Positions 15,217 to 46,700 of a stretch of 64,000 nt of DNA are shown here, piece after piece. The position numbers were made by a program, and so were the translations under genes. Each line of letters begins with the position of its first letter. The first letter of the stretch is position 1. The stretch comes from a virus. The notes beneath the pieces are model-generated. The model saw only the letters and a list, made by a program, of their open reading frames with translations, was not told the origin of the DNA and searched no databases. The stretch spans positions 1 to 64,000 of the IMG/VR virus record IMGVR_UViG_3300021960_000043, one strand, 5' to 3'.

Positions 15217-15997
15217 GGTGCTTGTAATTAGAAAACAAGATGCGGGGGCTGTTCAAACTGCCGTTACTTCTCAAGGTATAGCACCACAAATTAATTTATC
15301 AGGTGGAAGCAACATACCAATCTCTTCTTACTTTAGACCTTTTGACCCAAATCTAGGATATACAGGACAAAGACCTGATGTGCAAAATATGGGTACAGCC
15401 GATGAGCCAATGTATAATTTCGCAGGTCAAAACTATGCTGATAAAAATCAAGCACAAGCAGCATACGACCAAGCACCTGCTTACAACTTGACAACTGCTG
15501 GAAAGGTTGCTGGTGCTGCTACAACTGCTTTACCCGCAGCATGGTCTTTTTTGAGTGCGCTATCAGATGATTCTCAAGGAGATGTATTTTCGGCTGCTGG
15601 TAGAGGGGCTTTAGGAGCGCAAGCAACAAGAGCCACTTTGGGTGGTGCTGAAAGAGCAGCAGCAAATCTTGGAAATACCGTTAGTGGAAAGTTTGCTGAT
15701 TTTATGGACTCTACTGCTGGTAGCACATCAGGTAATGTTCATCAAAATAACTTTGAAGCAGAAACAGGAAAAAATGCTGACAGTGGTATGCACCTTTATA
15801 ATGATAGACAATCAATTAATGACCCTGTTAATGCTCAGTTAACAGAAGCGAATAAAGTGATAGCAGAAAAACCAAGTGTTGTTCCCGGTCAAAAAGCACA
15901 AGACGCAGCATCAAAAACTGTGGATGATGTTACAAAACCTCAAGAAGATTTACAAAGGCGAGTAGTAAAATCTGTAAGACATTGGAGATATTACTAA
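15209..15997 (+). CDS. Ala/Gly-rich protein, possible virion component
   Basis: 262 aa. The middle (about 95-165) is a run of small residues with a potentially membrane-active helix pattern (GKVAGAATTALPAAWSFLSA; GRGALGAQATRATLGGAERA). The ends are polar and Gln/Asn-rich, and the C-terminus is basic. Such Ala/Gly helices are frequent in phage ejection or pilot proteins; this is a composition argument only. The stop overlaps the terminase start (TAATG). Confidence 0.55.
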   Translation: MSKVLVIRKQDAGAVQTAVTSQGIAPQINLSGGSNIPISSYFRPFDPNLGYTGQRPDVQNMGTADEPMYNFAGQNYADKNQAQAAYDQAPAYNLTTAGKVAGAATTALPAAWSFLSALSDDSQGDVFSAAGRGALGAQATRATLGGAERAAANLGNTVSGKFADFMDSTAGSTSGNVHQNNFEAETGKNADSGMHLYNDRQSINDPVNAQLTEANKVIAEKPSVVPGQKAQDAASKTVDDVTKPQEDLQRRVVKSVRHWRYY

Positions 15998-17481
15998 TGG
16001 TAAAAGATGTTGAAGCCTTTATTCTAGAAATGGACAGGGAGATGTCTAAGAAATCTTTTCGATATTTTTTTGTAGATATTATGGGGATGCTTTACAGCGG
16101 GCATCATGAAACTTGGGATAAAGGTTTAGAAGAAAACCAATACTACTGTGTTAAAGCATCTCGCGACCACGGTAAATCTGTATTTTTTATGTCATATGCT
16201 TTATGGATAGCGGCATTTAATCCCGGCACTCATATAATGATTTTTTCTCACTCTATGGAACAGACTCTTGAACATATGAGATTTATTAGAAGTAATATAG
16301 ATACTGTTGAGATACTTCGTGATTTGAAACCAACATCAGGAAAACCGTGGGCTAAATCATATTTTGAGTTGACTAATGGTTCTCGTATCATGGCAAAGTC
16401 GGTTGGTGGTGCTACTAGAGGTTTCCACCCCGATGTGGTTGTTTGTGATGATATTCTATGGGGTACTACAGGAACTGAATTACAAAGAGCAGCCGATTGG
16501 TTTTATGGTGTTTTACTTCCTGTTCTTCACCACAGTTCTAGGTTGATGATGGTCGGTACACCATTCAGTTACAATGACTTATATGCTGAGTTAGAACAAA
16601 AAGAGACATTTTTGGTTGAAACTTTCCCTGCTATAAATATGAAAGGAGAGGCTCTTTGGCCTGAGAGATGGGATTTAGAATCTTTGGAACAAAGACGTTT
16701 ATCTATGCCAGCGATACAATTTAGCCGTGAGTATCTATGTGAACCGATTCACGATGTAGCGAGTATGTTTCCTATGGATATTTTAGAAACCGCTAGAGAC
16801 AAAGATTTGGTTTTGTTAGATAGGGCTGATACTAATTTTAATGAAGAAGGGCAACCTGATGGTATTTGGGGTCAACATTTCATAGGACATGACCCTGCTA
16901 TATCTTCTGATAAAAATGCTGATTTTACCGCTATGACTGTGATGAGAATGTTACCAAATGAAGATGTAAAACAGATTGTACACGTTGTGCATGAAAGGGG
17001 AATGTCGTCATTAGCACAAAAAAGAATGATGGTTATTCTAAATAATAAGTTTCAACCTGATTTAATAGAATTAGAAGGCAACAATTTTCAAAGAATGTTA
17101 GAAGCAGAAATGAGAGAAATGGCAGCGGATATGCCAATAAAAGTCTTTATGACAACAAGAACAAAAAAGGAATCACTTTTCATGTCTTTATTACTCGCAT
17201 TTGAACAAGGCCATATCAAGTTACCTTATGGTAATGAGAGAAGCCGTGAGTATACACATAAGGTGGAACAAGAATTGAATCGTTTTGGTATGCAAAAGAA
17301 TGGTAGACTAGAGAGTGTTGGTGTAAACGATGACTTGGCGATGAGTCTAGCACTTGCTAATTGGGCGACTAAAGAGTTCAAAGGTAAAGTGGTATTACTT
17401 GATGATGTCATGGAAAACTTTGAAAATTGGTTTGACGGGAATCAAAACAATAGAGGGAACGGGGGTTGGATGATACCATGA
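15997..17481 (+). CDS. terL: Terminase large subunit (TerL)
   Basis: 494 aa motor protein that packages DNA into the prohead. The N-terminal ATPase has Walker A ASRDHGKS (54-61), Walker B VVVCDD (147-152) and a coupling motif MMVGTPFS (184-191). The C-terminal RNase H-like nuclease shows IGHDP (D299), D309, LIELEGNN (E358/E360) and VNDDLAMS (D445/D446), the acidic residues that bind metal. The length is typical. ATG 15997 is chosen over the in-frame TTG at 15982 because GGAG at 15984-15987 is well placed and the ATG overlaps the upstream stop. No intein or disruption is seen. Confidence 0.95.
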   Translation: MVKDVEAFILEMDREMSKKSFRYFFVDIMGMLYSGHHETWDKGLEENQYYCVKASRDHGKSVFFMSYALWIAAFNPGTHIMIFSHSMEQTLEHMRFIRSNIDTVEILRDLKPTSGKPWAKSYFELTNGSRIMAKSVGGATRGFHPDVVVCDDILWGTTGTELQRAADWFYGVLLPVLHHSSRLMMVGTPFSYNDLYAELEQKETFLVETFPAINMKGEALWPERWDLESLEQRRLSMPAIQFSREYLCEPIHDVASMFPMDILETARDKDLVLLDRADTNFNEEGQPDGIWGQHFIGHDPAISSDKNADFTAMTVMRMLPNEDVKQIVHVVHERGMSSLAQKRMMVILNNKFQPDLIELEGNNFQRMLEAEMREMAADMPIKVFMTTRTKKESLFMSLLLAFEQGHIKLPYGNERSREYTHKVEQELNRFGMQKNGRLESVGVNDDLAMSLALANWATKEFKGKVVLLDDVMENFENWFDGNQNNRGNGGWMIP

Positions 17482-17540
17482 ATTATAAGAATAATACAAC
17501 AATAATAGTAGATGATAATAATAGTTTTACTTTAATATGA
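17478..17540 (+). CDS. Possible 20-aa coupling peptide
   Basis: The frame begins with an ATGA overlap on the terminase stop and ends with an ATGA overlap on the next gene's ATG, encoding an Asn/Ile-rich 20-residue peptide (MNYKNNTTIIVDDNNSFTLI). Exact tiling at both ends suggests that ribosomes pass through it to reach the LAGLIDADG gene. The peptide itself need not have a function. Confidence 0.3.
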   Translation: MNYKNNTTIIVDDNNSFTLI

Positions 17541-18697
17541 GAGAGATTGAGATGACAGAACTTTTTTCTACAACAGGGGAGGGTTGGTTTGAAACACATG
17601 TGGGGTGTTCTGCTTCTGATATTGTAAAAAGATTAAGAAAAAATAGAAGAGTCAACAAAAGCCAAAAAAATGACATTGATGATTTAATTGGAGACATTCG
17701 CACAATCAAATCTTTAGAGTTTGATTCAACCATTACAATGCATTCATGGTTAGAAGATTACAAAAATGTAATAAAATCTTTTTCACCTTCAGAAAAAGAC
17801 ATGAAAGCATTAAGAAAGTTTGGTGATTCTAGAAAGGTTACTTTACAAAGAGCATGTATTCAATGGAATCAATCTAATGAAATACTCAAAATGCTTGATG
17901 AGTTTGAAGGAGTGTGGGGTCAAGATGAAAAAGACTCTTGGGTAAAAGCCATGCAACAAAAGAAAGATGCAAAGAAAGTTTGGAAAACCACTTTACATCA
18001 AATGGATAGGTTGAACGAAAAAGATGCAGAGGTCTTGAAAAAAAGCGCATCTATGTTGGAACAAAAAGGTGCTATGACATCTAAAGCAATTTTTCAAACT
18101 TTACATGAAAATAAAGATATTACCAAAAGTATGACTGTGGGAAAATTAGGAAAACTACTAGCCATGTATGGTGAAGAATTAGATATTTTAACAGGTAACA
18201 CACGCTCTACATTTGTAAAAGCAGACAATCATGGTTTGATTCTCAAAGACCCTTTTGCTTACGCTGCTGGATTTTTAGATGCTGATGGTTATATTAGTAT
18301 CACAGGAAGGGGAGAACCAAGAGCAGGTTTCATAGCAACGGGTACTAGAGGGAGAATACATTGTGAACATTTACAAAAAACTTTAGATTGTGGTCGTTTA
18401 CAATTAGACCAAAAAGTGTACAAAGACAGTCAAAGGAGTCAACACCGCTTGCAATTCTATTCTAAAGCAGATATACGAAAGTTACTAACTTCCTTATTAC
18501 CTCATTTGCAAATGAAAAAAACACAAGCCAAAGCGGTGTTAGCCTACATAGAAGAAGATGATAAAATGAGAAAAGAGGAACTTAAAAAACTAGTTAAATA
18601 TAATAATTGGTCTGACGATACATCCAAGTCTGATGCCTTACTCGCTGAGTGGGGAGTACAAGCAGATACTGTTGCTAAATGGGGAGAGGGATTATAA
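17537..18697 (+). CDS. LAGLIDADG-domain protein between terminase and portal
   Basis: 386 aa. The first ~225 residues are charged and helical without a known fold. AAGFLDADGYISI near 243-255 is a LAGLIDADG motif, followed by the beta-rich pattern of that fold (GRIHCEHLQKTLDCGRL; HRLQFYSKADIRKLLTSLLP). Only one motif copy is seen, so it would act as a homodimer if it is a nuclease. Such proteins are homing endonucleases or derived DNA-binding proteins, and insertion between terL and portal is a classic landing place. It is not inside an intein. An ATG at 17552 is an alternative start. Confidence 0.7.
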   Translation: MREIEMTELFSTTGEGWFETHVGCSASDIVKRLRKNRRVNKSQKNDIDDLIGDIRTIKSLEFDSTITMHSWLEDYKNVIKSFSPSEKDMKALRKFGDSRKVTLQRACIQWNQSNEILKMLDEFEGVWGQDEKDSWVKAMQQKKDAKKVWKTTLHQMDRLNEKDAEVLKKSASMLEQKGAMTSKAIFQTLHENKDITKSMTVGKLGKLLAMYGEELDILTGNTRSTFVKADNHGLILKDPFAYAAGFLDADGYISITGRGEPRAGFIATGTRGRIHCEHLQKTLDCGRLQLDQKVYKDSQRSQHRLQFYSKADIRKLLTSLLPHLQMKKTQAKAVLAYIEEDDKMRKEELKKLVKYNNWSDDTSKSDALLAEWGVQADTVAKWGEGL

Positions 18698-20538
18698 TGG
18701 CAGAAGATGATAGTAGGATAAGTCGTTTTCTAACAAATCTCTCAAAACCCTTCCGTAGACGTTCAACTCCTGAACCTACAATGCCCTTGTACACTACAGG
18801 TATACAAGAACCTGTAATGGCGCAAGGAATCACATTACCTGCTCTTTATGCGGTGGCTCAAGAAAATCTAGTTCTTAGAACTATAATATCAAAATTAACA
18901 CAAGAAATGTTCAGAAGAGGATATTATTGGGAAAAGAAGTTTCAATTTTGCTGTGTGTCATGTGGTGAAGAATATAGTGATAGCGTTGACGCTTGTAAGT
19001 TATGTGGCTCTCCTGTGAGAGAACCTGATGTAGAACAAATGCTTTATCCTAAATGGTTGTTAAAACAAGAAAACTCAATGGAACAATCTTTCTTACATAT
19101 ATTATATGAAATAGAAAATGATTTGAATATTGTTGATGATGCGTTTTTGATATTGATAAAAGAATACCATGTAGACCCTGACACTAGTGAAATAGCATTT
19201 TATAGAATCAAAGAAGTAATTCGTGGCGACCCTATTTTTATGCGTATAGTTTCTGATAAAAGAGGTGTAAGAGGTGGTAGGTACAAAGTCTGTGCATTAC
19301 ATCGTGACCAAATTGCATATCCCGGTCAAAATGAAACTTGTGAAGTGTGTGGGAACGAAATGCAAGATGTACACTATGTCAATATGGCAGGTAGTGGTAA
19401 AACTCAATATTATATTGAAGGTGAGGTTATACATCTTAGTAAATATAACCCAAGTAAACTATATGGTAAGTCTCCTGTAAATACTATGTGGAGGCAAGCG
19501 ATGTCTCTTACTGCTATGGATAATTATATCTACACAGCGTATCAAAAGAGAAGGTCGCCAAAAGGTATAATTTCAGTTACCACAGATAATCTTGAATCTA
19601 TGAAGTCTTTTTGGAAATCTGTAGATGAAAAAATGGAACGTGACCCGCATTACATACCTAAAGTTGGTATAGAAAGTTCCACCGGAAGAGGGGGTGTCAA
19701 TTGGGTGAAGTTTATGGACACATTAGATGAGATGCAATATATTGCTGTGAGGGATGAGATTCGTGCTAGAATGTCTGCTTTTTATGGTGTTAGCAATATT
19801 TTCATGATTGATAATGGTAAAAGTGGTGGTTTGAATAATGAAGGTATGCAGATATTAGTAACTAATAGAGCAGTTGAGTTTGGACAAAAAGTTTACACAG
19901 AAGTATTATTCCCTAGAATATTAAAACAATTAAATGTTACAGATTGGAAATTAACTCTTTATCCGAATGAAGAAGAAGATGAAATCACTCGTTTGAGAAG
20001 AGATGAGATGGAAGTTAACCTTGCACAAAGAATGATGATGCTCGGTTATAAACCTGAACTCATGGAAGAAGGAGAAAGAGATATTAGATTTACTTATAAA
20101 AAAATAGACCCACAACAAGAAATGCCGGGTGGACAACCGGGAATGCCACCGGGAATGCCACCGGGAATGCCACCGGGAATGCCACCGGGAATGCCACCGG
20201 GAATGCCACCGGGAATGCCACCGGGAATGCCACCGGGAAAGCCACCGGGAAGGCCACCGGGAATGCCACCGGGAATGCCACCGGGAATGCCACCGGGAAT
20301 GCCACCGGGAATGCCACCGGGAATGCCACCGGGAAGAGGGCCGTTACCACCGGGAATTGTAAATCCGGGCGGTCAAGGAGTTGGAATTAGAAACAGAGGG
20401 CCAGCCTCACCTCAGTCTAGAACAAGCATGGGTGCAGGTTCTCCTATAACTAGTGTACAACAAAGAGGGCCACAACCTACGATAGCCCAACAGAATCAGA
20501 AGAAATTAGGCGATGCAGGGCGTTTGAAAGGGGCATAA
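18697..20538 (+). CDS. Portal protein with zinc ribbons and collagen-like tail
   Basis: 613 aa. It forms the dodecameric vertex through which DNA enters. Portal features include the N-terminal clip/stem region ([20 protein letters not shown]), the central [18 protein letters not shown] and the helical [12 protein letters not shown]. Unusual are two Cys-pair insertions (about 85-104, CVSC with CKLC; about 198-220, with CEVC) that probably bind zinc. The C-terminus has an MPPG repeat (about 481-546) followed by a Gly/Pro/Gln-rich tail. ATG 18697 is preferred over 18679 because ggggagagg precedes it and it overlaps the previous stop (TAATG). The position after terL fits. Confidence 0.85.
20137..20336 (+). 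repeat. Tandem 12-bp repeat encoding MPPG units in portal
   Basis: Sixteen consecutive copies of ccgggaatgcca plus a partial copy, in frame and nearly perfect. Two central copies are changed to Lys (ccgggaaagcca, 20233) and Arg (ccgggaaggcca, 20245). The product is a Pro-Pro-Gly-Met chain. Its near-identity at DNA level implies recent expansion and probably variable copy number between strains. Confidence 0.95.
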
Positions 20539-21755: not shown

Positions 21756-21910
21756 ATGTGAAAGTTGGTATTGTGAAAGGGGTTTCAACCACCGAACATT
21801 GTCAACTATGCGGAGGTAATACATCCACAGGATGTTTAGCACCTGAAAATCAGGGTGGGAGTTTGCTGTCCTGTTCTATTAGGCAGAACCCCGCAATTGG
21901 AGGGAGGTGA
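21752..21910 (+). CDS. 52-aa Cys-rich protein
   Basis: The peptide contains CQLC (17-20), then C28 and C41, a spacing compatible with a single zinc site. Its ATG overlaps the previous stop (GATGA) and its stop overlaps the GTG of the next gene, so it is tightly coupled on both sides. It is too short for any fold call. The 3' end supplies the strong ribosome site of the following gene. Confidence 0.6.
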   Translation: MNVKVGIVKGVSTTEHCQLCGGNTSTGCLAPENQGGSLLSCSIRQNPAIGGR

Positions 21911-24900
21911 ATGATTTGGATTCAGACCAAAATATTCATCTTCAAGCAAGAGACAATTTGTTAAAATCTTTCATCTTTGCACAAGAAGATATAGACCATG
22001 AATTGAATGACTATGTTTTATCAGTCATTAATTTGTTCAATAAAGGCATATATGAAGAAAATTACATTGATAGATTTTTCATTGATAAAAGTCTTTTAAT
22101 TTTGAAAGACGAAGATGTTAAAAGACAGATTTTAGATTTAGATAGATTCAAAGAATTAGAAGAAAGTCTACCATTAGATGGAAGAGAACAAGAAAGAAGA
22201 AAGAAACGAGAATCTTTCAAACCTACCTATGAGTATATGTTAAGTGGTAGAAAAACCGGACATAGAGATAGACTTGATTTTGAAAATGAAAAAACGGTAC
22301 AAAGACCAGCAAAAATGTACCCTGCTAAACATAGATGGGCTGGAAAACATGTAGTGTCAGATGATATGATTTCTAGATGGCCTAAAAGTGTAACAGACTC
22401 ATCTAGTTATAGAGACAATCCTTTTTCCAACATTTTACATCCTTTATTAAAAATTAATTCTAAACACGGTTATCCTGAGTTTGTTGAGAAATTAAAAAAT
22501 TATTATTTGTCTAGTGAAGATGACACACCGCTTTCACAACTTCACGGTGAAATAGAAATGAGGCATAACAACTATCACAAAAAAAATGGAGATATGGTGT
22601 TAGACAACAAATATTTAGGTGATTTAAGTGAACATAGTGAAGGACACGGTGCTCTTGAACACACATTATATGAAAGGGCTTATCAAAAATGGATAGAAGA
22701 TAACCGAGTTTCTGTTGATGAAATGATTAAAAATGGCTCTACAGATAAAGATGTTAGAAATAAACATTTTGAAGAGGCTGCTAATAAATGGACTAGTGAC
22801 GACTATCAAGAAGTCGAAGGGAGTAATTTACAAGATAATAGATTATACGCTGATATTCAAAAATTAATTAATAGTGGCGGTTTCAAAGAAAGTGAAAATG
22901 CTAGAGATTATCTTTTAGAATATAAAAATAAAGGTAAATACGGTGAGGGAGAAATTGAACATTATGATAAACAAAAATACCCACTAGGTGTTTTAGAAAA
23001 CCACTCTCATAAATTAGGATGGTTAGGGTATAATTTAGGTTTAGAATGGTTAGAACCTAAAGACAGAAGTAAAGTTATTGAACATTTATTAGAACACCGA
23101 AGTGATGGAAAAGAATCTCACCAATCACATGTTACGTTAAGTGATGGTGTTAAGTTGCCTATGGCTAGATTAAAAAGAAATGCAGCAAAAAGGGCTATGC
23201 CTGAAATGTTGTGGGCTATAGGTAGTCATGATAGAGCATTACCTAACACTAAAGCACATAGAGAAAACAAAGAAGAAATTGGTGACTTTGATACTGATAA
23301 AAGAGTTCATTTCTTTAACACAGGTATGAAAGAAACAATGGTAAAGACAGGTAAAGGGGATGAACAAATATCTCTTAATGAATCTTTACTTAAAAATATA
23401 AATGATAAATTACATAAAAACATGTACGACCAAGAAGATTTTCTTGAAAATCCCGCAGCCGAGCAGGGGATTAAAGATGCTAACTCATTAAGATTTTTAC
23501 CTATAACAGATTATGAAATGCAAGGTGTTAAAGAAAATTATCAAAAAGGGTTGCGTAATGCATTCAAAAATCAAATGTTCACAGATAAAATGGGTCAAAG
23601 ATTACCACTTGCTGAAATGAAAAGGGTAGATGCAAAGATACTTCATGCTGCTCTAAAAACCTTCAATCGAAATGTAAAAAACAGGAGACAAACTTTCCAT
23701 GCTACAAGTAGTATAGAAGATTTGAAAAAACATTATGCTGTAGAAGAAGGTAAACACCCAATTCATGAGTTATTAGGTAATTCACTAGATGGCTCATTGA
23801 TAGATGCAGAACACATTGAAAGTTTAGAAAAAAGATTAGAGCAAGGTTTTAGTGTAGGAGATACACAAAAAAATGTATCAAATCACTTACAACCTTTTAC
23901 TAGAATAAAAGGTCCAACTGAAGAATCAGTAGATAGTGATACTGCAACTCATTTTCATAAAACTAAACACGGTTTAGAAGGATTACAAAACTTTTGGGCG
24001 CATGGTTTTCAAAGAGGTGGATTATCAACTTCTCCTGAAACTTACATGGATTTTTTACATGAAATGACAATAAATCCTGAAGAGCCTAATCAATCACTTT
24101 TTGGAGTGAAAAATGAAAAAAGCGGCATAATAGATTTACATAGTAATATTGCTGGTTTATTCGGTTTAATAAATAGTGAAACTTTACCACCTTATCAAAA
24201 GTTTGCTCACACACCAAAACAAGTCCTATCTATACATGACAGTTCTCAACCTAAAATGAAAAAAAGAATAAGAATGGATATGCCTAGAAATCTAAAAAAT
24301 CATAATATTTCTGAACATAGTAGAACACCGGGTGTATCTCATAAGATTAAAAACTCTGAGATTGGAAAGTTATCACATTTGGGTATTGGCATGGCTGACA
24401 ACGGATTACATAGCAACATAAACCCAACTGCTAGGGTAGGTAGTACACTAGGTTATACTTTTGATACTACTATATCTTCCAATTCATCGGGTATTCTTAG
24501 AGATTCTATATTAAGAGGTATAGGTCATAATCCGGGTGATAAAGACATAGCAACAGGAAGAACAAAATTAGGCTCACCTGTTTCTATGTATGGTCTAGAA
24601 GATTTATTCACAGAAGGAAAAGTTCCTTTACCTAATATTGGTGATAAATCAGACTTTTTGCAATTCATGACTGATAAAAACACATTTGCACGTTCTGAAA
24701 GTGAGCAAATGAAAACACTTAATTTAGACATGGAACAAATAATTGAAGAATTAAATTATTCTGTATTACAAGAAGAAAATAATATGGGTGGTCTTTCAGA
24801 AGTAGAAAAAGAACATCTTACTGATAGATACCAAGAACTTGAAAATCAAAAACTAGAAATCATTAGACAAATGAATAATATTGATGATAGTGATACAGCC

Positions 24901-27321
24901 TTAGGTGTAGAAAATGGAATCATGTTAAGAAATCTAAGAGAGAAAAAATCAGACTTAAACGCTATACATGACATAGCAAGAGAACACATCATACCGGGTA
25001 TGAAAAAAGCAAACCCCGATGCTTTTCCTTTGGATAACCCATCTCAATTTTTAATTGATTCAGCACAAGCGTTACACGATGCTGAGTTATTTGCTTTACA
25101 CTCGGATGGTTCAATACATGGGAAAAATAGTTTAGGTTTGACCCATAATGAAATAGAGACTGATAGTATACAAACTAAATTGGGCCAATCACCACATCGT
25201 GATATGGCTCAAAGTGTTAGAGATAACGGCATAAATCTAGATTTAGAAAGAGAAGATAAAGATGAATATATTAATGAACTTTTTGAAGAACTAAGTATAC
25301 CTCCTTCAAATTACAATAAAAAAATAATAGAAGGAGTGTTACAATCAGGTAAAACACATCTTACTACTATGGGTAATTTATTAGCACAAGAAGAGCATGT
25401 TCCTAACCACGTTAAAGACCACAAAAGTATGATTGAACATTATGAAGAACAACTTAACCAATCTACATACGGTGAGGGTAGAAAAAACCTAGCATTAGAT
25501 AAAAGCCATCTTTTGAATCGTATGCCAGCAAGAAAACATTTGTTGTTAAGTCAAGCAACAAAAGATGAATTAGAACATTGGGGTTTGGATTATCACCAAT
25601 TACCAAGAAATATTTACGGTAATGAATCAAAAGGAACTAGTGTGAAAGATTCAGGTATACCTAGTAAAACTAAAAGATTCATGGATAGTTTAGTTAGTTA
25701 TGATGAGGGTGCATCTCCTGATATAGAAAATACCGAAGATGTAGGTAGAGTAACAAGAGATGAAGTAACTCATGGCTCAGATAAAATTAATTCTGTGCGT
25801 TCTAATGATGGTATAAACCCCTATCTATATTATTCTAGTAGTGCTCAAAAATTACACAATGGAAAAGTAATGTTTCCTCCAAGCACTAGTATGAATATAG
25901 ATAGAGATGGAAATGCACAATGGGGAAATAACACACAGCAGAGTTATATGATACCCGCTTCGGAAGAAGGTTTAGTTGCCATGCATGGAGAAAACACCAT
26001 ATCACAAATACAAGGTTTAGCAAATCAGCAGGGTTTAGACACTATGTATGTTAGTCCTACTAGTAATTTAGATAGAATTAGTCCTGAAAATCCTATAGGT
26101 GAAGCAGTCAACTATGAGACTATAGCCACTAGTTTTGATAAGATAACCAATAGTAGTCTATTGAAAAACTTACCAAAAGAAATGCCATTACTTGACCCTT
26201 ATCACAAAGTTTTCGATTATGAGAATGTGGAAGAGTTGAAAGGATTTACAGGAGATTGGGTTGTTGCTGCTATGGAAGTAGGTCAAAGAGTCAAAGTTAC
26301 TCGTAAGGGTACATTCATAGAAGTCAAGTCTAACGATGGGGATAAAATAGGTTTATCTGATTCTATGCGCACATCTATTAGAAAATTAGGAAGTAAAAAC
26401 TTCATTATGGATGGGGTTCTTAATGATAAAGGAATTACTATGATGGATTTGATGTATTATGATGACACCGATGTAACAGACATGGATGTAAGAGAAAGGA
26501 TGAAATTATTAAGAAGTCAATTTGATAGCCATGAAAATATTTTCATCCCTAGTCCTTCTACTCTAAGAATGACAGACGAAGATGGTTTAGAAGAAGCAAT
26601 AAAATATTTGAGAAGTGAAAATAAAGATTGTAAAATACTTATTAGAGATGCTAAATCAACTTATATGAAAGGGGAAGAAAAACATCCTAAGTGGATTTTA
26701 CTTACTAAATCTGATGATGACTTTCACATACCCTTTACTATGGAGTTAGAAGAAAATGTATTTATTATCAATTATGAACATGATATAGTTAAGTTTGATA
26801 TTGTTGATGAAGAACCTATCAACCCACGGGCCATATTAGGAGAGTTAAACAATAGCGACTATACATTAACTTTAACTAAAAGTTTAGAAAAGTATTGGCG
26901 ACCTGCATTTTACGAAATGGTGAAAGAAGAAAAAGATGAAGATGATACTGAAGATGATGAAGATGATGAAGTTATTTCAGACCGTAGAGCAGAAGTTATG
27001 GAACAAGAAAGTGCTGGAATATTAAAACCTAAGAAAGACCCTAATCTCTTACTCAAACCAAACATGATGAAAAATATTATAGAAATTATTGAAAGAAGCA
27101 TGGATGCTTTAGAAAAAGGGCATTTCCCAATGTCGGGTGGAAAAGGCTTAGGTATTGATGTTGGTAGTGATATAGAAAGTCCTAGAGGGCCGACTAAACT
27201 TACCAATGAGGCTTCTTTACCTGATTGGGATATGAAAGAAAGACCACAACAAGACCCTGAGAAACCTGAAAAGTACCCTAATAGGGAAAAGAAAGCATTG
27301 GAAACAAAAAGAACAGATTGA
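21907..27321 (+). CDS. 1,804-aa virion-type protein with degenerate DNA-ligase domain
   Basis: A giant hydrophilic protein. The first ~1,400 residues are helical, His/Lys/Glu-rich and not recognised. Residues ~1430-1600 follow the order of an ATP-dependent DNA ligase adenylation domain: GDWVVAAMEVGQRVKV (1449-1464, motif I place), FIMDGVLN (1499-1506, motif III), MMDLMYYDD with RERMKLLRSQF (IIIa), ILIRDAKSTYMKGEE (IV) and KWILLT (V). The adenylated Lys is replaced by Met1456, Asp of KxDG by Val1458 and Glu of motif III by Val1504, so it should be inactive. An acidic stretch (1680-1700) and a polar tail follow. GTG 21907 overlaps the previous stop; TTG 21916 is a good alternative because GGAGGTGA (21903-21910) lies five bases upstream of it. 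Confidence 0.7.
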   Translation: MNDLDSDQNIHLQARDNLLKSFIFAQEDIDHELNDYVLSVINLFNKGIYEENYIDRFFIDKSLLILKDEDVKRQILDLDRFKELEESLPLDGREQERRKKRESFKPTYEYMLSGRKTGHRDRLDFENEKTVQRPAKMYPAKHRWAGKHVVSDDMISRWPKSVTDSSSYRDNPFSNILHPLLKINSKHGYPEFVEKLKNYYLSSEDDTPLSQLHGEIEMRHNNYHKKNGDMVLDNKYLGDLSEHSEGHGALEHTLYERAYQKWIEDNRVSVDEMIKNGSTDKDVRNKHFEEAANKWTSDDYQEVEGSNLQDNRLYADIQKLINSGGFKESENARDYLLEYKNKGKYGEGEIEHYDKQKYPLGVLENHSHKLGWLGYNLGLEWLEPKDRSKVIEHLLEHRSDGKESHQSHVTLSDGVKLPMARLKRNAAKRAMPEMLWAIGSHDRALPNTKAHRENKEEIGDFDTDKRVHFFNTGMKETMVKTGKGDEQISLNESLLKNINDKLHKNMYDQEDFLENPAAEQGIKDANSLRFLPITDYEMQGVKENYQKGLRNAFKNQMFTDKMGQRLPLAEMKRVDAKILHAALKTFNRNVKNRRQTFHATSSIEDLKKHYAVEEGKHPIHELLGNSLDGSLIDAEHIESLEKRLEQGFSVGDTQKNVSNHLQPFTRIKGPTEESVDSDTATHFHKTKHGLEGLQNFWAHGFQRGGLSTSPETYMDFLHEMTINPEEPNQSLFGVKNEKSGIIDLHSNIAGLFGLINSETLPPYQKFAHTPKQVLSIHDSSQPKMKKRIRMDMPRNLKNHNISEHSRTPGVSHKIKNSEIGKLSHLGIGMADNGLHSNINPTARVGSTLGYTFDTTISSNSSGILRDSILRGIGHNPGDKDIATGRTKLGSPVSMYGLEDLFTEGKVPLPNIGDKSDFLQFMTDKNTFARSESEQMKTLNLDMEQIIEELNYSVLQEENNMGGLSEVEKEHLTDRYQELENQKLEIIRQMNNIDDSDTALGVENGIMLRNLREKKSDLNAIHDIAREHIIPGMKKANPDAFPLDNPSQFLIDSAQALHDAELFALHSDGSIHGKNSLGLTHNEIETDSIQTKLGQSPHRDMAQSVRDNGINLDLEREDKDEYINELFEELSIPPSNYNKKIIEGVLQSGKTHLTTMGNLLAQEEHVPNHVKDHKSMIEHYEEQLNQSTYGEGRKNLALDKSHLLNRMPARKHLLLSQATKDELEHWGLDYHQLPRNIYGNESKGTSVKDSGIPSKTKRFMDSLVSYDEGASPDIENTEDVGRVTRDEVTHGSDKINSVRSNDGINPYLYYSSSAQKLHNGKVMFPPSTSMNIDRDGNAQWGNNTQQSYMIPASEEGLVAMHGENTISQIQGLANQQGLDTMYVSPTSNLDRISPENPIGEAVNYETIATSFDKITNSSLLKNLPKEMPLLDPYHKVFDYENVEELKGFTGDWVVAAMEVGQRVKVTRKGTFIEVKSNDGDKIGLSDSMRTSIRKLGSKNFIMDGVLNDKGITMMDLMYYDDTDVTDMDVRERMKLLRSQFDSHENIFIPSPSTLRMTDEDGLEEAIKYLRSENKDCKILIRDAKSTYMKGEEKHPKWILLTKSDDDFHIPFTMELEENVFIINYEHDIVKFDIVDEEPINPRAILGELNNSDYTLTLTKSLEKYWRPAFYEMVKEEKDEDDTEDDEDDEVISDRRAEVMEQESAGILKPKKDPNLLLKPNMMKNIIEIIERSMDALEKGHFPMSGGKGLGIDVGSDIESPRGPTKLTNEASLPDWDMKERPQQDPEKPEKYPNREKKALETKRTD

Positions 27322-27342: not shown

Positions 27343-27364
27343 ATTGCATTATACATTATGGTGT

Positions 27365-28753
27365 GTGTTATCCACAGCAAGCCTTTATGGTGATGATACA
27401 ATCACCTTGCTCAAAGCAGGGAATGATTTGGTAGTGGCAGGGTACGCAAGCGTAGAATTAGTAGATAAACAGGGGGATTTAATAACAAAAAACGCTTTGA
27501 AAGACGGATTCAAAAAGTTCATGACCGACCCAAAATACAGAAACGTACAATTAGCACACTCAAATATACAAGTCGGAGAAGTTATTCCAAATTACACAGA
27601 TAGCGAAGGGAGGGTATGGAAAAGCGAAGTTGATGATGTCGGAATGTTTGTAGTAATACAGTTACGTGATGACATCGAGAAAGCAAAAGAAGTTGCTGCT
27701 GAAATCAGAAAAGGAAAACTAAGAGGTTTTAGCATCGGTGGACAGGCATTCAAAAGAGTAAGAAAAAGTGACCCAAAACACGGCGACTACCAAGAAATCA
27801 GCAAACTAGAATTACACGAAATAACAATCTGTGAAAAAGGAATAAACCCTGAAGCAACATTTAGAATATTAAAACAAGATAAAACAAAGGAAGGAAATAA
27901 AATGACCGAAGAAAACGAAGATATGACGAAGCAATTGGGAGATGTTCTCTCTCGTCTAGAAGGCAGACTTGACGCTATGGAAAAAGGCTCTATGCCACCA
28001 GCACTCAAAGAAGCAATCGCAGACAAGAAAGAATCTTCTGAAAAGAAAGACGACAAAGAAAAGGCATCTGCTGATAAGAAAGATGAAGATAAAGACGATA
28101 AAGAAAAGTCTGAGTTTTCTGACGTTATCACATCAGATTACTTAGATTGGATGGAAAACACCCTAAAAAGCGGCGGTGTAGACATTGATGGTGCAAGAGC
28201 ACACTTCGATGACCTCAACAAAGCAAACTTAGGTTCAGACCTAAAAGACGATGGTGCGGAAAGATTCGCAGCACAAGTCAAAGGTCGAGTGCAAGAAAAT
28301 GGCGCACCTTCCACTAATGCTATTTCCCGTACAACAGGAAGTGGCGGAAAGAAAGATGTTAAGAAATCTGATTTCCTAACACCCGATTCAGTGAGTGATG
28401 CAGATGTAGAAGCAGCATATGAAGTCTACAAAGCAGCGGCTATGGAACAAGAGTTCCGTGGTTCTCTAGAATCAAGTTTTGCAAACCGATTTGCTAATGA
28501 AAGGCAAGAAGAAATTGCAAAAGCACAAGCACAACAATTTGATGCTCGCGGCCCACTTGATGAAGTAATGAAGGCTCTAAACTCTCTTAATGAGAGAATT
28601 GACGGTATGACTTCAGCAGACGGTACAACAACCATCGCTAAGAGTGCAAACACAACACCACAAGTAACTATTCCATCAACTCAGGACATGCACAAAATGT
28701 CATGGGATGAGGTTCATGCCTTAGCAGATAGGGCTTTTGATAGGGGAGAGTGA
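27365..28753 (+). CDS. Prohead protease fused to scaffold (XkdF/S78-type)
   Basis: 462 aa from the GTG at 27365; the frame is open to a TTG at 27344. Residues ~15-170 form a caudoviral prohead serine protease: GYASVELVDKQGDLI, His65 in LAHSN, Ser123 in GFSIGG, and HEITICEKGINPEA near the third catalytic site. Residues ~180-462 are a scaffold region, very charged (Lys/Glu/Asp/Ser), helical, ending in DMHKMSWDEVHALADRAF. The protease guides shell assembly, then degrades the scaffold and trims head proteins. Fusion of the two is known in several phages. It lies directly before the major capsid gene, five bases apart. Confidence 0.85.
   Translation: MLSTASLYGDDTITLLKAGNDLVVAGYASVELVDKQGDLITKNALKDGFKKFMTDPKYRNVQLAHSNIQVGEVIPNYTDSEGRVWKSEVDDVGMFVVIQLRDDIEKAKEVAAEIRKGKLRGFSIGGQAFKRVRKSDPKHGDYQEISKLELHEITICEKGINPEATFRILKQDKTKEGNKMTEENEDMTKQLGDVLSRLEGRLDAMEKGSMPPALKEAIADKKESSEKKDDKEKASADKKDEDKDDKEKSEFSDVITSDYLDWMENTLKSGGVDIDGARAHFDDLNKANLGSDLKDDGAERFAAQVKGRVQENGAPSTNAISRTTGSGGKKDVKKSDFLTPDSVSDADVEAAYEVYKAAAMEQEFRGSLESSFANRFANERQEEIAKAQAQQFDARGPLDEVMKALNSLNERIDGMTSADGTTTIAKSANTTPQVTIPSTQDMHKMSWDEVHALADRAFDRGE
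27902..28753 (+). CDS. Nested scaffold protein (internal start)
   Basis: An in-frame ATG at 27902 (Met180 of the fusion) follows AAGGA (27891-27895) at six bases spacing. It starts a 283-aa scaffold without the protease, exactly at the domain border. This mirrors the nested scaffold starts of phages such as lambda (Nu3 within C). The internal ribosome site is seen in the sequence; its use is inferred. Confidence 0.6.
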   Translation: MTEENEDMTKQLGDVLSRLEGRLDAMEKGSMPPALKEAIADKKESSEKKDDKEKASADKKDEDKDDKEKSEFSDVITSDYLDWMENTLKSGGVDIDGARAHFDDLNKANLGSDLKDDGAERFAAQVKGRVQENGAPSTNAISRTTGSGGKKDVKKSDFLTPDSVSDADVEAAYEVYKAAAMEQEFRGSLESSFANRFANERQEEIAKAQAQQFDARGPLDEVMKALNSLNERIDGMTSADGTTTIAKSANTTPQVTIPSTQDMHKMSWDEVHALADRAFDRGE

Positions 28754-28758
28754 ATTAA

Positions 28759-29931
28759 ATGGCAAGAGATTATGTACGCACAATAACAGATATGGAAAGA
28801 TACTACTATGGGGCAGGTAACTCAATGGGTTACTCCTACACAGGTAGTGAATTACTCAAGGCTGATAGCCCTATGCTATCAACTACCGCTGGTACTTACC
28901 AAGCAATCTACGGTAGAAAAGTATGGTCGCAACTGAACCAAGAGTTCAATGCGTTCTCTATACTACCTAAGAAACCGTGGGATAGAAGCGGATGGCGTGT
29001 TATTACTGCAAAGCCTAACGGCGGTGCTCTACATGGTGGAGTTGCAGAAAACGCAACATTACCTGAGACTGTAAAACCTACATTCCAACACATCGGTGCA
29101 AAACCTAAGACAATTGCTCATACATTCGATATGTCTGAAACAGCAATTTTCCTAGCAGACCGTGATGATGGTCTTGGAGACATCAGAGCAGTTCTGAAAG
29201 AAGAAATGGGTAAACACCACGCTGAAATGGTAAATAAAATGCTATTAGGCGATGTTGACACACCAGCAGCAAACAACTTCGAGTCATTAGACCGTATTAC
29301 TGCTGCTGACGCAGGTACAACAGGATTAACAGGATTGAAAACATCAAGCAGTGATGCACACGTTAGTGCTGCTGCTGACTTAGACATCTATTCAATTGAT
29401 AGAAGTGCTAACTCATGGAGTCACGCTGAAATGGATTGTGCTGCTGATACAGCAGATGCAAGCCGCAGAACTTTCAGCCTAGACCACTTAGATACGCTAT
29501 TCCAGCGTATTTGGGAACGTGGAGGAAACCCTAAGGTTATTCTAACAGGTTACGACACTCTAATGAGATTACAACAACTTCTACAATCACAACAGAGATT
29601 CATGGAAGAGAAGAGAGTTACCCCTACCTACAACGGTGTAAAGGGTGTACCCGGAATCGAAGCAGGTTTCATCGTAGCAACATACAACGGTGTACCAATC
29701 ATACCAACAAAGGATATGCCTGATGATGGTGGAATCAGCCGTCTATACTTCTTAGACACTGATTACATGTATTTCAGTACAGCAATACCGACTCAATACT
29801 TTGAGTCCGGTATCGAAACAGGCGACCCATTCGCAATTAACAGACTAGGACAGGAAGGACTTTACCGAACTATGGGTGAAGTATGGACTACTTTCTTTGG
29901 GGCGCAAGGCTCAGTGAGGGATTTAGTCTGA
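28759..29931 (+). CDS. Major capsid protein, HK97 fold
   Basis: 390 aa. It forms the icosahedral shell. The pattern fits HK97-type capsids: an N-terminal arm, KVWSQLNQEFNAFSILPKKP (E-loop/spine start), the conserved GGVAENATLPET, then LDTLFQRIWERGGNPKVILT (the spine helix and A-domain strand), and the C-terminal domain with IIPTKDMPD and SRLYFLDTDYMYF. Codons here end in C or G far more often than in surrounding genes, which fits very high expression. GGGGAG lies 10 bases upstream. No proteolytic delta domain is obvious. Placement after the protease/scaffold supports the call. Confidence 0.85.
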   Translation: MARDYVRTITDMERYYYGAGNSMGYSYTGSELLKADSPMLSTTAGTYQAIYGRKVWSQLNQEFNAFSILPKKPWDRSGWRVITAKPNGGALHGGVAENATLPETVKPTFQHIGAKPKTIAHTFDMSETAIFLADRDDGLGDIRAVLKEEMGKHHAEMVNKMLLGDVDTPAANNFESLDRITAADAGTTGLTGLKTSSSDAHVSAAADLDIYSIDRSANSWSHAEMDCAADTADASRRTFSLDHLDTLFQRIWERGGNPKVILTGYDTLMRLQQLLQSQQRFMEEKRVTPTYNGVKGVPGIEAGFIVATYNGVPIIPTKDMPDDGGISRLYFLDTDYMYFSTAIPTQYFESGIETGDPFAINRLGQEGLYRTMGEVWTTFFGAQGSVRDLV

Positions 29932-40754: not shown

Positions 40755-43700
40755 GTGCCACAAGGTTACTTTTCTTCTATAGGTAATAAGAACATAGATT
40801 CTGAACACGATATTAGAAGTCTTTTGAATGCAAAAGCAAAAGGTGGAATTGAGTCTGTTACATCAGGTCTTTACAGTAGACACATAGCAATTGAAAGTTG
40901 GTTGATGCCTGATTTTGGTGGTGTAGTTGTTGAGAAAAGAAATCAGTTTTCTCTCAAAGTTGGTGAAGTGCATGAAGCAGCACCTATCGTATTTACAGTT
41001 AGTTTGCTAAATAAAGGTAGAGTAGAAGAACATACTATAGAAACAGGTTATCATGATGGTAGTCGCTATGTTGGTGCTATATATCCTAAAACAGAAAGTA
41101 GTGGTATATTCAACACTCAACCATCTGATTTGAATAGAAATCACAGAGAGTTAATCCACGTTGTTGCAACATTTTATGGTAATAAAATAGAGATATATGT
41201 CAACGGTATTTTGATGGCACACAAAACGCTAAACAATCCTGATTACATTTTGAATGTTAGTGAAGAGAATATTTTCATTGGTGGTAAAGGCGGTGAGTTT
41301 AGAGGTGTAATCGAAAGTTTACATTTGGCTGCAAACTTTAGACCGCAGATGATTAATCCTTCAGTTCCGCTTAAAGGTGAAGATACTTTACTTCTTTACC
41401 GTTTTGAAGAGCCAATAACCGTTTTTGATGATGTTTTCAAACTAACGAGTAGTGCATCTTCAGGTGCTACAACAATAAACATCGGAACAACCGCTGCTGC
41501 TAAACTAGCCACGCTTCTCAAAGGTGTGAGTGTTACAAGCGGCACTATTGACTTCACTCAATCCCCGTTTAGTAGTGGAAATTACAAAGTTATACAAAGC
41601 ACTTCCTCAGGGATTACAAAACACGATGTCGCCCATGTACCTTACAATTTACTTCTAAGACCGGGTGGCTACGACTATACAACGAAGAAACCAAATGGTA
41701 GTCCACCTGAAAGAGTTAGACTAAAAAGCATCAATGTTGATACAGGTGTTTTAACTATAGCGAGTATACATTTAGACTTCAACACAGCCAATAATGGTGC
41801 TAGAGGACTTCTTCACGTTCACACCACAGATAGCAGATTGGTTGTTGTGGGTGCTGATTTACTGATAGATTCGGGTACAGGTAAACCGTATCAACCACCA
41901 CATTATTCTTCTAGAGCAATAGATAGAACAGGTCAAATGGTGATAGATGAAAGCACATACGAACAACATGGGTTTGTGTATTCTTCTAGAATGGCTCTTT
42001 CAACAACAGATACAGACAATCCATATGCAGCAACTTGGCCTACTACTATTTCTACAGACTTTAGCATAGGTCATTCAGGTAGACACATCAATAATCATGT
42101 TGAAGGTCATCATTATCTTAGAAAGTTTCCTAAGGCCAATGAAGAGATATTAGATTCTCAAAGTGACGGTAGTGCTGATTTAATAAGTGCAATTTACGAT
42201 GTGCCTTTAGATGGTATGAAAGAGCAACTGAGCATTAATAGCAAAGTAGACTTATACAAAGAAATAGGTGATTACACTGTTATTGATTTTGTAAACTCAT
42301 CTACTGTCAGTAGTATATACAGCAACTATGAACTTACTAGTAGCCCCGGCTCAGGAGTACAAGAAATAATTGCTATAGGTGGTAGCGGGTTTAATTACAC
42401 ACCTTTCCTTCTCAAATCTCCTGTTATATCTCCAACTGCGACACCAAATGAAAACACTAGGTCGCATCATCTAAGACCTAGTAAAGAAAGCAGAGTAGCG
42501 TTGTTACATGTTCCGGTATTAGCATCTACTTACAATTTAGCACCTTATGTGCAAATACATTACAATGCTATAGATTTGACAGGTGCTTCAATGAATAGTA
42601 GCAATAGTAGTGTACCTTTATTGATGGTTGAAAAAATGATACCTTCAGGCACTACTGTAATTGCTGAAGGTGTTTTTCTTTTTGAGACTATAAAAACAGC
42701 ATTGAACTCAGGTGATTTGACTCTATACGCACCGGGTGGTTGTATATTATTAGACAGCGGAGAAAACGCCAATGCAAGAGATTTACTAGAAGTTCATGCA
42801 CTATCATCAGACAGTAGTGAAGGATATGATGCCGACACACTTCTTGATGAATCCAACACACCACCTAATCTAACTCCTTATGTCGGTGATACTCTTGTTA
42901 ACACACCGCCTTCTATTATTACAGATTCAACAAGTAAAACAACACAACATGATTCTTCATTCCATAGAATGATGTTTGAAACTGTTAAATCTACAAAAAG
43001 TCTAGGAGATTATTCAGATTACAAAACTATGGATGTGGTTGCTACAAACAGTTCCGCAGAACCTGACACCATAGTTACATCATCCTCATCCCCTGTGTTT
43101 GAGTCTTTTGATATTATAGATAACGTAAGTATTGCTGACACACACGCAGACACAATGCTAATTGTGCAACCTTCACAACGCTCTAGGTTTTATCAATTAA
43201 AGAATGTAAAAAGCCAAAGAAACACCCTTGACAACCCAAATATAATTAGTTTGCATTATCTTCTAAGTAGAGGTAGGTTGAGAAGTGTAGATGAAACAAA
43301 AGAAGATGAAGGTGCATCTTATACAACAATACAAGCAATAGGATTACAAAACTCACTTTCGGGCAGAAATGTATCTTTCACAGGTTCAGGTAGTAACGAT
43401 TCACACATTGTCAAAGAAATAGAACCTAACGCGCCTGTTGTTAGTGTAACTTTAGGTGGTGTGGGGCAAGGTGCTGTTGATACTAAACCGACATTCTTAG
43501 AGAGTGAGTTCAGTCGAGAACCATATTCAACAAGAAGAGATTATGTTGTTACAGCAATAAAGTATGATGCAACCAACAAGAGAATATACGTTAACCCGAT
43601 AAACAACAATTCTGCAAATATGAAAAGTTGGGGTACGTTTGGATTCCCAAAAGCAGGTAAGATATATTTTGAAGATGGTTCTCATGCCAAGTATGATTTT

Positions 43701-46700
43701 AAAGCGTCAACTTATTTTGAGTTTTCAACTGCTACAGCAGGTAGTAGTGACTTTGTTAGCGGTGGTAGAGAGTACACTGAAATCTATCAATTGTTACAAA
43801 GTAGAAATCTACTTTCAGGTGTAACGTCATCAACAACAGGAGATTTGAGCATTACCGCTGTTATATCTAGTGAGCCTGATTTTGGTGTTGAATCTCAAAT
43901 AGAAGATGGAACAACTGTGAATGATAGAATGTTCCACAGTTTAAACGATGTATCACAAGATTACCAACTAGGTACTCAATATGCTTCTACTAGGGCTTTG
44001 GTGGAGATACCATTCTTCGCTAATCAATTCTTTGATAATGAGAGCGTAGGCACTTTAGTAGATGGTGATAACTCTTTCAAAATACATCTTGATGCTACTA
44101 ACACAGCACACACGTATAATCCAAGTCCTGTAGGTAGAAGGCCAAAAAGTGTAGAACAAACAGATAGAGAGGCACTATCGGCTTATGCACACGCTATAGA
44201 GAACAACACTTACATTTCTTCTGCTAAGGTTCTTTCATACGATGGTACAATAACCATCACTGTTGATGATGCTAATATATTCCCTGATGCTAACTCTTCT
44301 GATATTGGTACTGATTTTAGAAATATAGGTGGTAACGGACAAGTTCTAAGGAATAGAAGGGCTTTTACTAAAACAGGAGAGTGGGTAGTTTATACCGATG
44401 TTGATTACAGTGCTAACACCCTTACTGTTACAGACGGTGATTATTTCTCTTCTGTTAATTTCTTCAATGAGTTAGAAAACAATGAAGGCGATTTACGCCT
44501 TTATGTTGGACAAACATTACCAACAGAATTGATAGAACCAATAGGTTCTGATAAGAGTACACCTTCGGCAGACTTTGAGAGCCGTTCTGAATATTATCAC
44601 GACCAAGCAAGTATGATGACTCAGGGTGGAAATGTTGATTATGGTTTGAGGCAATATGTCAGCGCAATCGAAATCAAAGCAGGGCCGGAAAGTAACCCAC
44701 ACGCAGAAAAAGTTACAACAAAAAGGGCTAAAGGGGATATTCAATCAATTCGTTCTTTTGGTGCGTCAGACGTTAATACGGTTGTTGTCTCACTTTCTCC
44801 TGATGATTTACTTCTTTTTCCTAGTTTGGGAAATCGTTCAATAGATGATTTTACTCTTGGTACAGGAGAATTGTTTTACGAAGCCACAATAGATTACAAC
44901 GGTACTGATTACAAGTTTCATTACTACGGCCATCTTGAAGAAATAAACAACTATGATAACACAGGTGCTGCTGCTGTGTCATCTGATATAGCAAAAAATA
45001 GCATAGTGTTGGTATACTATACTTCGGGTACATATCCTACGGCTACTCCAACGGCAACAAGTGGTCTTGATTGGGTTGATTTTATCGGTAGTGAAGTTAA
45101 ATTAACAGGTAGGAAAAGAAGAGTATTCTTTGATGAATATGTGAATAATGCAACAGGAAGTGTGTTACAATTTGAAAATGAAAAGAATCCGTTGTATTCT
45201 GAATTAATAGCGAATACTAAGTTTAGTTCAGGGCTTGTGTGGGCTAGTACAAGTTCAAAAACAATAACCGTAACTAATACTACTACTTCAAAATCTTTGA
45301 ATGATTATTTTGACATGAACTTCAAAGAAGGAGATTTATTGTTTTTCAAATATTCAGGTAGTATTAGTAGCGTAAACAAAGATGAAATTGGTTATTTAGG
45401 TGTTGTGGATTATGTTACAGGTGGTACAAGTATAACTCTCAAAGCAAATGTACCTGCTTGGATGAGAGAAGAAACGACAGCACAAATAGGCGTTGCTGTA
45501 AATGATTTCAATGATTTTGATGCTGTTCTTAATTCTAGTTGGTTGCACCCTTATTGTAATGGTGGACTACGACAAGGAGATACTGTATGGGCTAATATGT
45601 CATATAGCAATCCTCATGCTATGGAAGGTTTGTTTTCAAAGAGTAGAGGTATACATAATGAAGGTCTTGTATGGAAAGGTTTCAATGGTGGTGAGGGTAG
45701 TTTAGATGCTACAAACCCAAGAGACAGTATACCGATGGAGAACTTCTTGATTGGTGATACATGTATAGAAACAGCAAGAAACCTAGCACAACACATCAAT
45801 AAGACTGTTGAAGAGAATTACAAATCTTTAGGGTTAAATGATGTAATAACAGCAGATTCATTTATCGTAGGGAAAAAATACAAAATAGTTTCTACAGGTG
45901 ATACAACATTTACATCTATAGGGGCTATAGATAATGAAGTGAATACTACATTCACAGCAACAGGTGTTGGTAGCGGGACAGGTACAGCAACACAACTTGA
46001 TGCACCAACAGTAGCATTCGTAGACCCGTATCTAGCAGGTGAGAATCATGCTAGAGTTCTGTTATACGATGCTGAACACGATAGAGAATACATCGCTTTC
46101 CAAGACATACACATGCAAGTGCAATCATCTGCTGAGACAACTAAGATTGGTTGGGATAGAAATGTGGTTGAAGGTACAAACACATCATCTACTGATTTAG
46201 TAAAAAGACTACCTGAGATAAACGGTGCTGCTGCACATGGTTATACAACACAAATAGACGTTGCTAACGGCTATCCATCACAAAACAAGTTCATTCGCTC
46301 AACTCAACAATCTAAGTTTATTGAGAGTGCATATGCACACGACTTAGCCAATAAGCAAACTGATGATTTAATTTACAGCACTTTGTATGATGACACAGTT
46401 AGACAAAATAACTTTTCAAGGTTATATGGTAAAGCACACGGACACCATGTACATGTCGGTTTGAGTATAACAGGTAATGCAGACGGGTATGCTTATTCAT
46501 TCAGTACACCACTTCGTAACAATGAATCTGTAGCATCATGGAAAATAGCAAACTCTTACCATGTGCTAAATAGAAAATTGACAAATGGTTTCATAGATGG
46601 TTTGTCTAAAAACATTTCAGATTCATTAAGAGATAGAGGCACATTCTTTGATACCCCTGATGGTACAAGAGTCATTCCAGCATTTTTGTGTTTGAAGGGC

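Follow-up and report, generated by a model that had tools for sequence, protein, structure and literature searches.

A ligase-fold domain without catalytic residues in a giant protein encoded between portal and prohead protease of magroviruses

What are the closest described counterparts of a ligase domain that no longer ligates? Within the nucleotidyltransferase-fold superfamily, the standard non-catalytic member is snurportin-1, an adaptor for nuclear import in eukaryotes, which recognises RNA caps through its m3G-cap-binding domain (PF21974). Archaeal and eukaryotic ATP-dependent DNA ligases of the LIG1 type (PF01068; the structures 4eq5 and 9dfa, human LIG1 and LIG3) carry motifs on this fold in the order I-III-IIIa-IV-V; the Ser-Arg positions of motif Ia hold the 5′ phosphate of the nick in ligases, and a S-x-Y-x-x-G-x-[RK]-x-x-x-W segment lies near the DNA in the active enzymes.

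Across the surface ocean, magroviruses are widespread, and a nearly complete replisome with a ligase has been ascribed to them. An (ATP-dependent) DNA ligase appears among their replication genes in ICTV profiles and in a 2023 survey (PMC12999244, PMC10768690, PMC10160649), the survey (among these sources) reporting it in almost all magrovirus genomes, and one sentence in one paper of PMC12999244, PMC10768690, PMC10160649 and PMC7318539 puts the ligase gene adjacent to that of the prohead protease. A further point of reference comes from the Druskaviridae, a related family with the haloarchaeal viruses HVTV-1 and HCTV-5, in which the interval between portal and protease genes encodes large proteins (HVTV1_113-115, HCTV5_109-114) with fused enzyme-like domains, namely ADP-ribosyltransferase, MuF-like and zeta-toxin domains, and has no ligase domain. 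Here, we describe a protein from the same interval of a magrovirus, of which the C-terminal part holds a ligase fold stripped of its catalytic residues.

A giant protein in the structural module

The window analysed here, 64,000 nucleotides long, corresponds to bases 1-64000 of the 95,231-bp virus record IMGVR_UViG_3300021960_000043. Its source is a magrovirus, that is, a virus of marine Poseidoniales archaea: the Magrovirales gene set is present, with a module of HK97 major capsid protein (MCP), portal, large terminase subunit (TerL) and S78 protease next to an archaeal replisome and a thermosome, and this content matches that published for the group (PMC10768690, PMC12999244, PMC10160649). 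The left part of the window holds the tailed-virus structural module, with the terminase large subunit at 15982..17481 (phrog_38, 7.6e-61; Terminase_6C), the portal protein at 18679..20538 (phrog_18178, 4.1e-65; 29-31% identical to the HVTV-1 and HCTV-5 portals), the S78 prohead serine protease at 27344..28753 (PF04586, 7.7e-9; phrog_80) and an MCP of the HK97/SU10 type at 28759..29931 (phrog_24667, 5.9e-55; PF17236), each on the + strand. The right part encodes PolB, and inspection of the translations by eye points, in addition, to a thermosome-like chaperonin, an ERCC4-type nuclease, a sliding clamp and a small clamp-loader subunit.

Between portal and protease lies an intact open reading frame with a GTG start (21907..27321, + strand), which encodes a giant structural-module protein of 1,804 aa. 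Portal and capsid searches of IMG/VR led to 158 ORFs homologous to it. In every locus with both genes (152/152 for giant protein and protease), the genes share a strand and are arranged as portal - giant - protease - MCP, with a median gap of 1.37 kb from portal to giant gene (131 loci) and of just 24 bases from giant gene to protease (152 loci). The original prediction had placed the ligase-like domain in a giant protein of the packaging/capsid operon, and this part of it is supported.

Conservation is unevenly spread over the giant protein. When relatives are compared with the window sequence, conservation is by far highest in the C-terminal part: median identity is ~35-50% in the ligase-like region and ~10-25% over most of residues 1-1394. 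As strongly conserved among relatives as the ligase-like domain is a C-terminal tail (GLGIDVG...ESPRGPTKLT...LPDWDM..RPTEDPE; 27124..27264, + strand), for which the searches made here returned no match. The N-terminal ~1,200 residues are predicted with moderate confidence to be mostly helical (model pLDDT 68.5) and the predicted model has no fold match in the PDB; since this portion resembles no known fold, it is gene order alone from which membership in the head was judged. Querying phage records by tblastn with the giant protein and with its C-terminal domain gave no match, and cellular relatives sought in genome contigs yielded none that was confirmed. Because magroviruses are known only from metagenomes, the literature offered no virion proteomics or biochemistry on any of them.

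The contents of the HVTV-1 and HCTV-5 interval indicate that the region between portal and protease can host large proteins with enzyme-like domains, yet by profile search the giant protein has no homology to the large proteins of these two viruses. As a side observation, HVTV1_115 (L252:18228-22169), the ‘zeta toxin’ protein of 1,313 aa from HVTV-1, also carries a C-terminal ADP-ribosyltransferase domain (PF03496, 1.4e-8) and an internal repeat, WVSDPTEQAPNRWT.T.TGEHRYQETKP.

Ligase fold and lost catalytic residues

Residues 1425-1603 of the giant protein (26179..26715, + strand) form a nucleotidyltransferase-fold domain, hereafter the pseudoligase domain. PF01068 (DNA_ligase_A_M) matched residues 1512-1596 with E = 8e-4 in a search with the full protein and reached 1.5e-4 against its C-terminal 454 residues, both below the curated cut-off; when the 95-kb record was searched, the domain was the only PF01068 match (2.7e-6). 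All of the 56 diverse homologues scanned singly matched this model (best 1.9e-7), and 40 of them matched the NCBIfam model for ATP-dependent DNA ligases. A profile of the family, searched against the PDB, found the Thermococcus DNA ligase 4eq5 (7.3e-5), 3rr5 and human LIG3 and, more weakly, snurportin-1; ligases were reached by the family profile only, as phmmer with the single window domain returned no match among PDB sequences.

Structure modelling led to the same fold. With 59 sequences, AlphaFold modelled residues 1395-1804 at a pLDDT around or above 90 over about 1425-1675, and every listed Foldseek match in the PDB was a ligase structure or a ligase-containing complex (best 9dfa, 3.4e-10; other top matches 3rr5, 4eq5, 2cfm, human LIG3 and LIG1), whole-model TM-scores being modest because the query includes disordered tails. 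Among viral models, Foldseek returned mostly DNA ligases and capping enzymes. An adenylation-domain fold with ordered ligase motifs is hence present by profile, AlphaFold and Foldseek alike. This confirms the ligase-type fold originally proposed for residues ~1430-1600: with archaeal DNA ligases as the top structural matches, a fold other than nucleotidyltransferase is ruled out, and so is a chance motif match, by profile, structure and family-wide conservation.

The snurportin-1 domain belongs to the same fold superfamily and is likewise non-catalytic. PF21974 was weakly matched by 12/56 homologues (best 1.4e-5), the alignment covering motifs I-IIIa including a W-[IV]-V-V...G-x-R stretch; overall, the pseudoligase is nearer to DNA ligases.

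Which ligase residues are left? We counted residues over 116 distinct domains from related viruses and checked the motif register with two references, 4eq5 and an intact magrovirus ligase in which K116 (of KFDG) aligns with the nucleophile slot. In the window, the degenerate motif I reads Met1456-Glu-Val-Gly-Gln-Arg1461 (26272..26289, + strand). Not one of the 116 domains has Lys at the nucleophile slot (Met1456 in the window), which is occupied by W in 40, Y in 17, L in 16, F in 15, H in 11, M in 8, Q in 5 and I in 4 domains. The slot of the KxDG Asp holds Asp or Glu in 97/116 (Val1458 in the window), the motif I Gly (Gly1459) is retained in 111/116 and Arg1461 in 116/116. With the nucleophile Lys absent from all 116, its loss is no quirk of a single sequence. 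Only 43/116 domains carry a Lys immediately upstream of this slot, and the window, which has Ala1455 there, is not among them; an intact Lys elsewhere in motif I was rejected.

The remaining motifs are degenerate to varying degrees. At the motif Ia position, which is Ser1475-Asn1476 in the window (26329..26334, + strand; placed by the 4eq5 alignment and the 116 domains), the Arg slot is mainly acidic (E in 82 and D in 8 of the 116) and the Ser slot mostly Asp or Asn in homologues. Motif III has become Asp1502-Gly1503-Val1504 (26410..26418, + strand), its Glu slot being I, V, T, A, M or L in all 116 domains. The best preserved ligase signature, apparent both from Pfam and from the 116 domains, is motif IIIa with the helix that follows (M-D1514-L-M-Y-Y-D ... 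E1530-R1531-x-K-x-L-x-R1536; 26443..26514, + strand), in which Asp1514, Arg1531 and Arg1536 are found in 116/116. In the family alignment, motifs IV-V (26629..26706, + strand) include the conserved D-A-K-S-T-Y-M-K-G-E..H-P-K-W. Here, Cys1575-Lys1576 stand in place of the motif IV Glu-Gly, 113 of the 116 domains have R and 3 have K at the motif IV Lys slot (Arg1580 in the window), Leu1598 and Thr1600 occupy the two motif V Lys positions, and a segment D-x-x-S-T-Y-M-x-G-E-x-[RK]-H-P-K-W is nearly invariant. Residues invariant across the 116 domains are W, R, D, S, Y, G, H and K.

Compared with LIG1-type ligases, the pseudoligase thus shares the motif IIIa D-x-L-x-x-D...ER and the S-x-Y-x-x-G...W segment, whereas the nucleophile Lys, motif III Glu, motif IV Glu-Gly and Lys, motif V Lys and motif Ia Arg are all replaced. 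It also differs in context, as it forms part of a structural-module protein of 1.7-2.0 kaa that has no recognisable N-terminal DNA-binding domain and, in the clade of the window, is missing the OB region. The residues named in the original prediction all agree with the translation, with small corrections for Arg1580, which is not a retained ligase residue and instead replaces the motif IV Lys, and for the motif V Lys positions, which align with Leu1598 and Thr1600. With the catalytic residues lost family-wide, adenylation chemistry would indeed not be expected.

Is the domain decaying? Between related viruses, residues 1425-1603 had a dN/dS of 0-0.08 in 29/29 close pairs, and in every one of these pairs it was lower than over residues 1-1394. 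Such values speak for a functional domain that is not decaying, and together with the same loss in all relatives they rule out a ligase recently decayed in one genome. Catalytic residues lost in a domain kept under purifying selection is what marks a pseudo-enzyme of the nucleotidyltransferase superfamily.

The family falls into two clades. In 62/98 sequences, ~110 extra residues follow motif V; the 36/98 without this region include the window, where the insertion point falls at 26695..26715 (+ strand) by alignment and tree. On the tree, a single gain or loss accounts for the distribution of this region (SH-aLRT support 100). Scattered weak matches to OB families and its position after motif V suggest that the ~110-residue region is probably the ligase OB domain, although it matched neither ligase OB models nor PDB ligases. 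The net charge of the pseudoligase domain is acidic (median -5), and the window protein carries -22 over residues 1604-1700.

A non-catalytic module and its alternatives

How can a ligase fold, family-wide catalytic loss, purifying selection and a fixed place between portal and protease, all established here by sequence and modelling, be reconciled? We consider it likely that this is a pseudo-enzyme, i.e. a DNA-ligase adenylation domain whose chemistry has gone and which serves, without catalysis, as a binding module of a giant protein for head morphogenesis or of the head interior. The loss would date back to the common ancestor that these magroviruses share, or further, with the domain retained at the C-terminal end of the protein, which may act in head assembly or be packaged in the head near the portal. 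A reworked pocket, composed of the invariant Arg1461, the Arg at the motif IV Lys slot and a usually aromatic or hydrophobic residue at the nucleophile slot, would bind a partner together with the nearly invariant STYMKGE..HPKW loop; candidates for this partner are a nucleotide-like ligand, a nucleic acid or a viral protein. The domain itself would not ligate, and most magroviruses would use a host ligase. A more far-reaching version, in which the magrovirus order turned a replicative-type ligase domain into a non-catalytic part of head assembly or virion that recognises the genome end or a nucleotide ligand, with most members devoid of a ligase of their own and the rest of the archaeal replisome kept, is a tentative proposal and on balance doubtful.

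Alternatively, the domain may be purely architectural, a folded block for protein-protein contacts with portal, protease or capsid protein to which the old pocket is irrelevant. The gene order fixed between portal and protease fits this, as do the tolerated OB loss and the fact that the most strongly conserved stretches comprise the C-terminal tail and the motif IV-V loop and not the old catalytic residues. However, Arg1461 without exception and Arg at the motif IV Lys slot in nearly all domains suggest that the pocket still matters, which renders this option rather unlikely. It is unlikely, too, that the domain still clamps DNA at a nick, gap or genome end, with no sealing, while the genome is packaged or injected. 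Such a clamp would be in line with top structural matches that are DNA ligases only, with the conserved S-x-Y-x-x-G-x-[RK]-x-x-x-W segment and with a probable OB domain kept in one of the two clades, but the nick-gripping positions of motif Ia are D/N and E in most relatives and the domain is net negative (about -5), features that disfavour canonical nick recognition, and the window clade has no following domain, the window protein being strongly acidic there (-22 over 1604-1700). For the same reasons, the DNA-end or nick-binding role suggested in the original prediction is not supported.

Two further scenarios carry less weight still. As injected cargo, it could interfere with or borrow replication or repair proteins of the host, in the manner of a ligase decoy; the ADP-ribosyltransferase, MuF-like and zeta-toxin proteins of HVTV-1 and HCTV-5 tell us that the locus can carry host-acting domains, but the giant protein has no sequence relation to them, and we regard this as quite improbable. 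Least credible, and indeed very improbable, is an active enzyme that works by another route, be it through the upstream Lys (S-K-W-Y-D-G) or a different transferase chemistry. Some supposed pseudo-enzymes did prove active, USP53 being an example mentioned in PMC12037411, and the Lys directly before the nucleophile slot in 43/116 and an Asp/Glu at the KxDG Asp slot in 97/116 domains may be read in this direction. Most members, the window included, nevertheless do not have that Lys, and motif III Glu, motif IV Glu-Gly and motif V Lys are gone as well.

With respect to novelty, the pseudoligase is not the first of its kind in the wider sense, as snurportin-1 exemplifies the known non-catalytic superfamily members, and the initial statement that there is no described example goes too far in this regard. 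What holds is that the setting is new: the literature searched had no report of a virion or structural protein, of tailed viruses or otherwise, with a ligase domain that is catalytically dead.

The ligase ascribed to magroviruses

The pseudoligase was found in 36/42 long, possibly incomplete virus records, including 27/27 of those of 79 kb or more; none of the other six records reaches 75 kb, and the structural region may be missing from them. Only one of the 42 (G002) also carries an intact PF01068 ligase. RNA_ligase (PF09414) was absent from the 22 virus records searched for it and the NAD-dependent ligase (PF01653) from the 18 searched. The search for a further functional ligase alongside the pseudoligase, made with these three families, was positive in G002 only; being Pfam-based, this absence covers what these models reach, and an unrelated type or a more distant ligase could escape.

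Together, this bears on the published gene lists. The adjacency of ligase and protease reported in the literature is the position of the giant gene, from which we infer that the published ligase is the pseudoligase domain. Judged by that one sentence and by the record counts, the published ‘ATP-dependent DNA ligase’ of magroviruses is probably the giant gene, and what these viruses are often said to possess as a ‘DNA ligase’ probably does not function as one. The literature treats it as a replication enzyme, whereas the domain described here is without catalytic residues in all relatives. If the annotated ligase is this dead domain, the replisome statement needs correcting and most magroviruses would depend on a host ligase. 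If true, this also adds an unrecognised, conserved family of head-module proteins with a pseudo-ligase domain as a target for structure determination and virion proteomics.

The ligase of G002 (L166:642-1781) is a protein of 379 aa with the motif KFDGVR and appears intact; close relatives were found in only two other virus records. The window itself holds three more ORFs worth a remark. A 237-aa P-loop protein at 7036-7749 weakly matches a Roc/Ras-like GTPase family (7.5e-4, below cut-off), and a Ras-like GTPase would be unusual in an archaeal virus. Between terminase and portal, the ORF at 17537-18697 has a LAGLIDADG_3-like match (0.0055, below cut-off) and is possibly a free-standing homing endonuclease. 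Finally, the tail region contains an ORF of 5,447 aa (40755-57098) with a weak concanavalin-like lectin match near its start (Laminin_G_3, 6.4e-5), possibly a giant tail fibre or adhesin.
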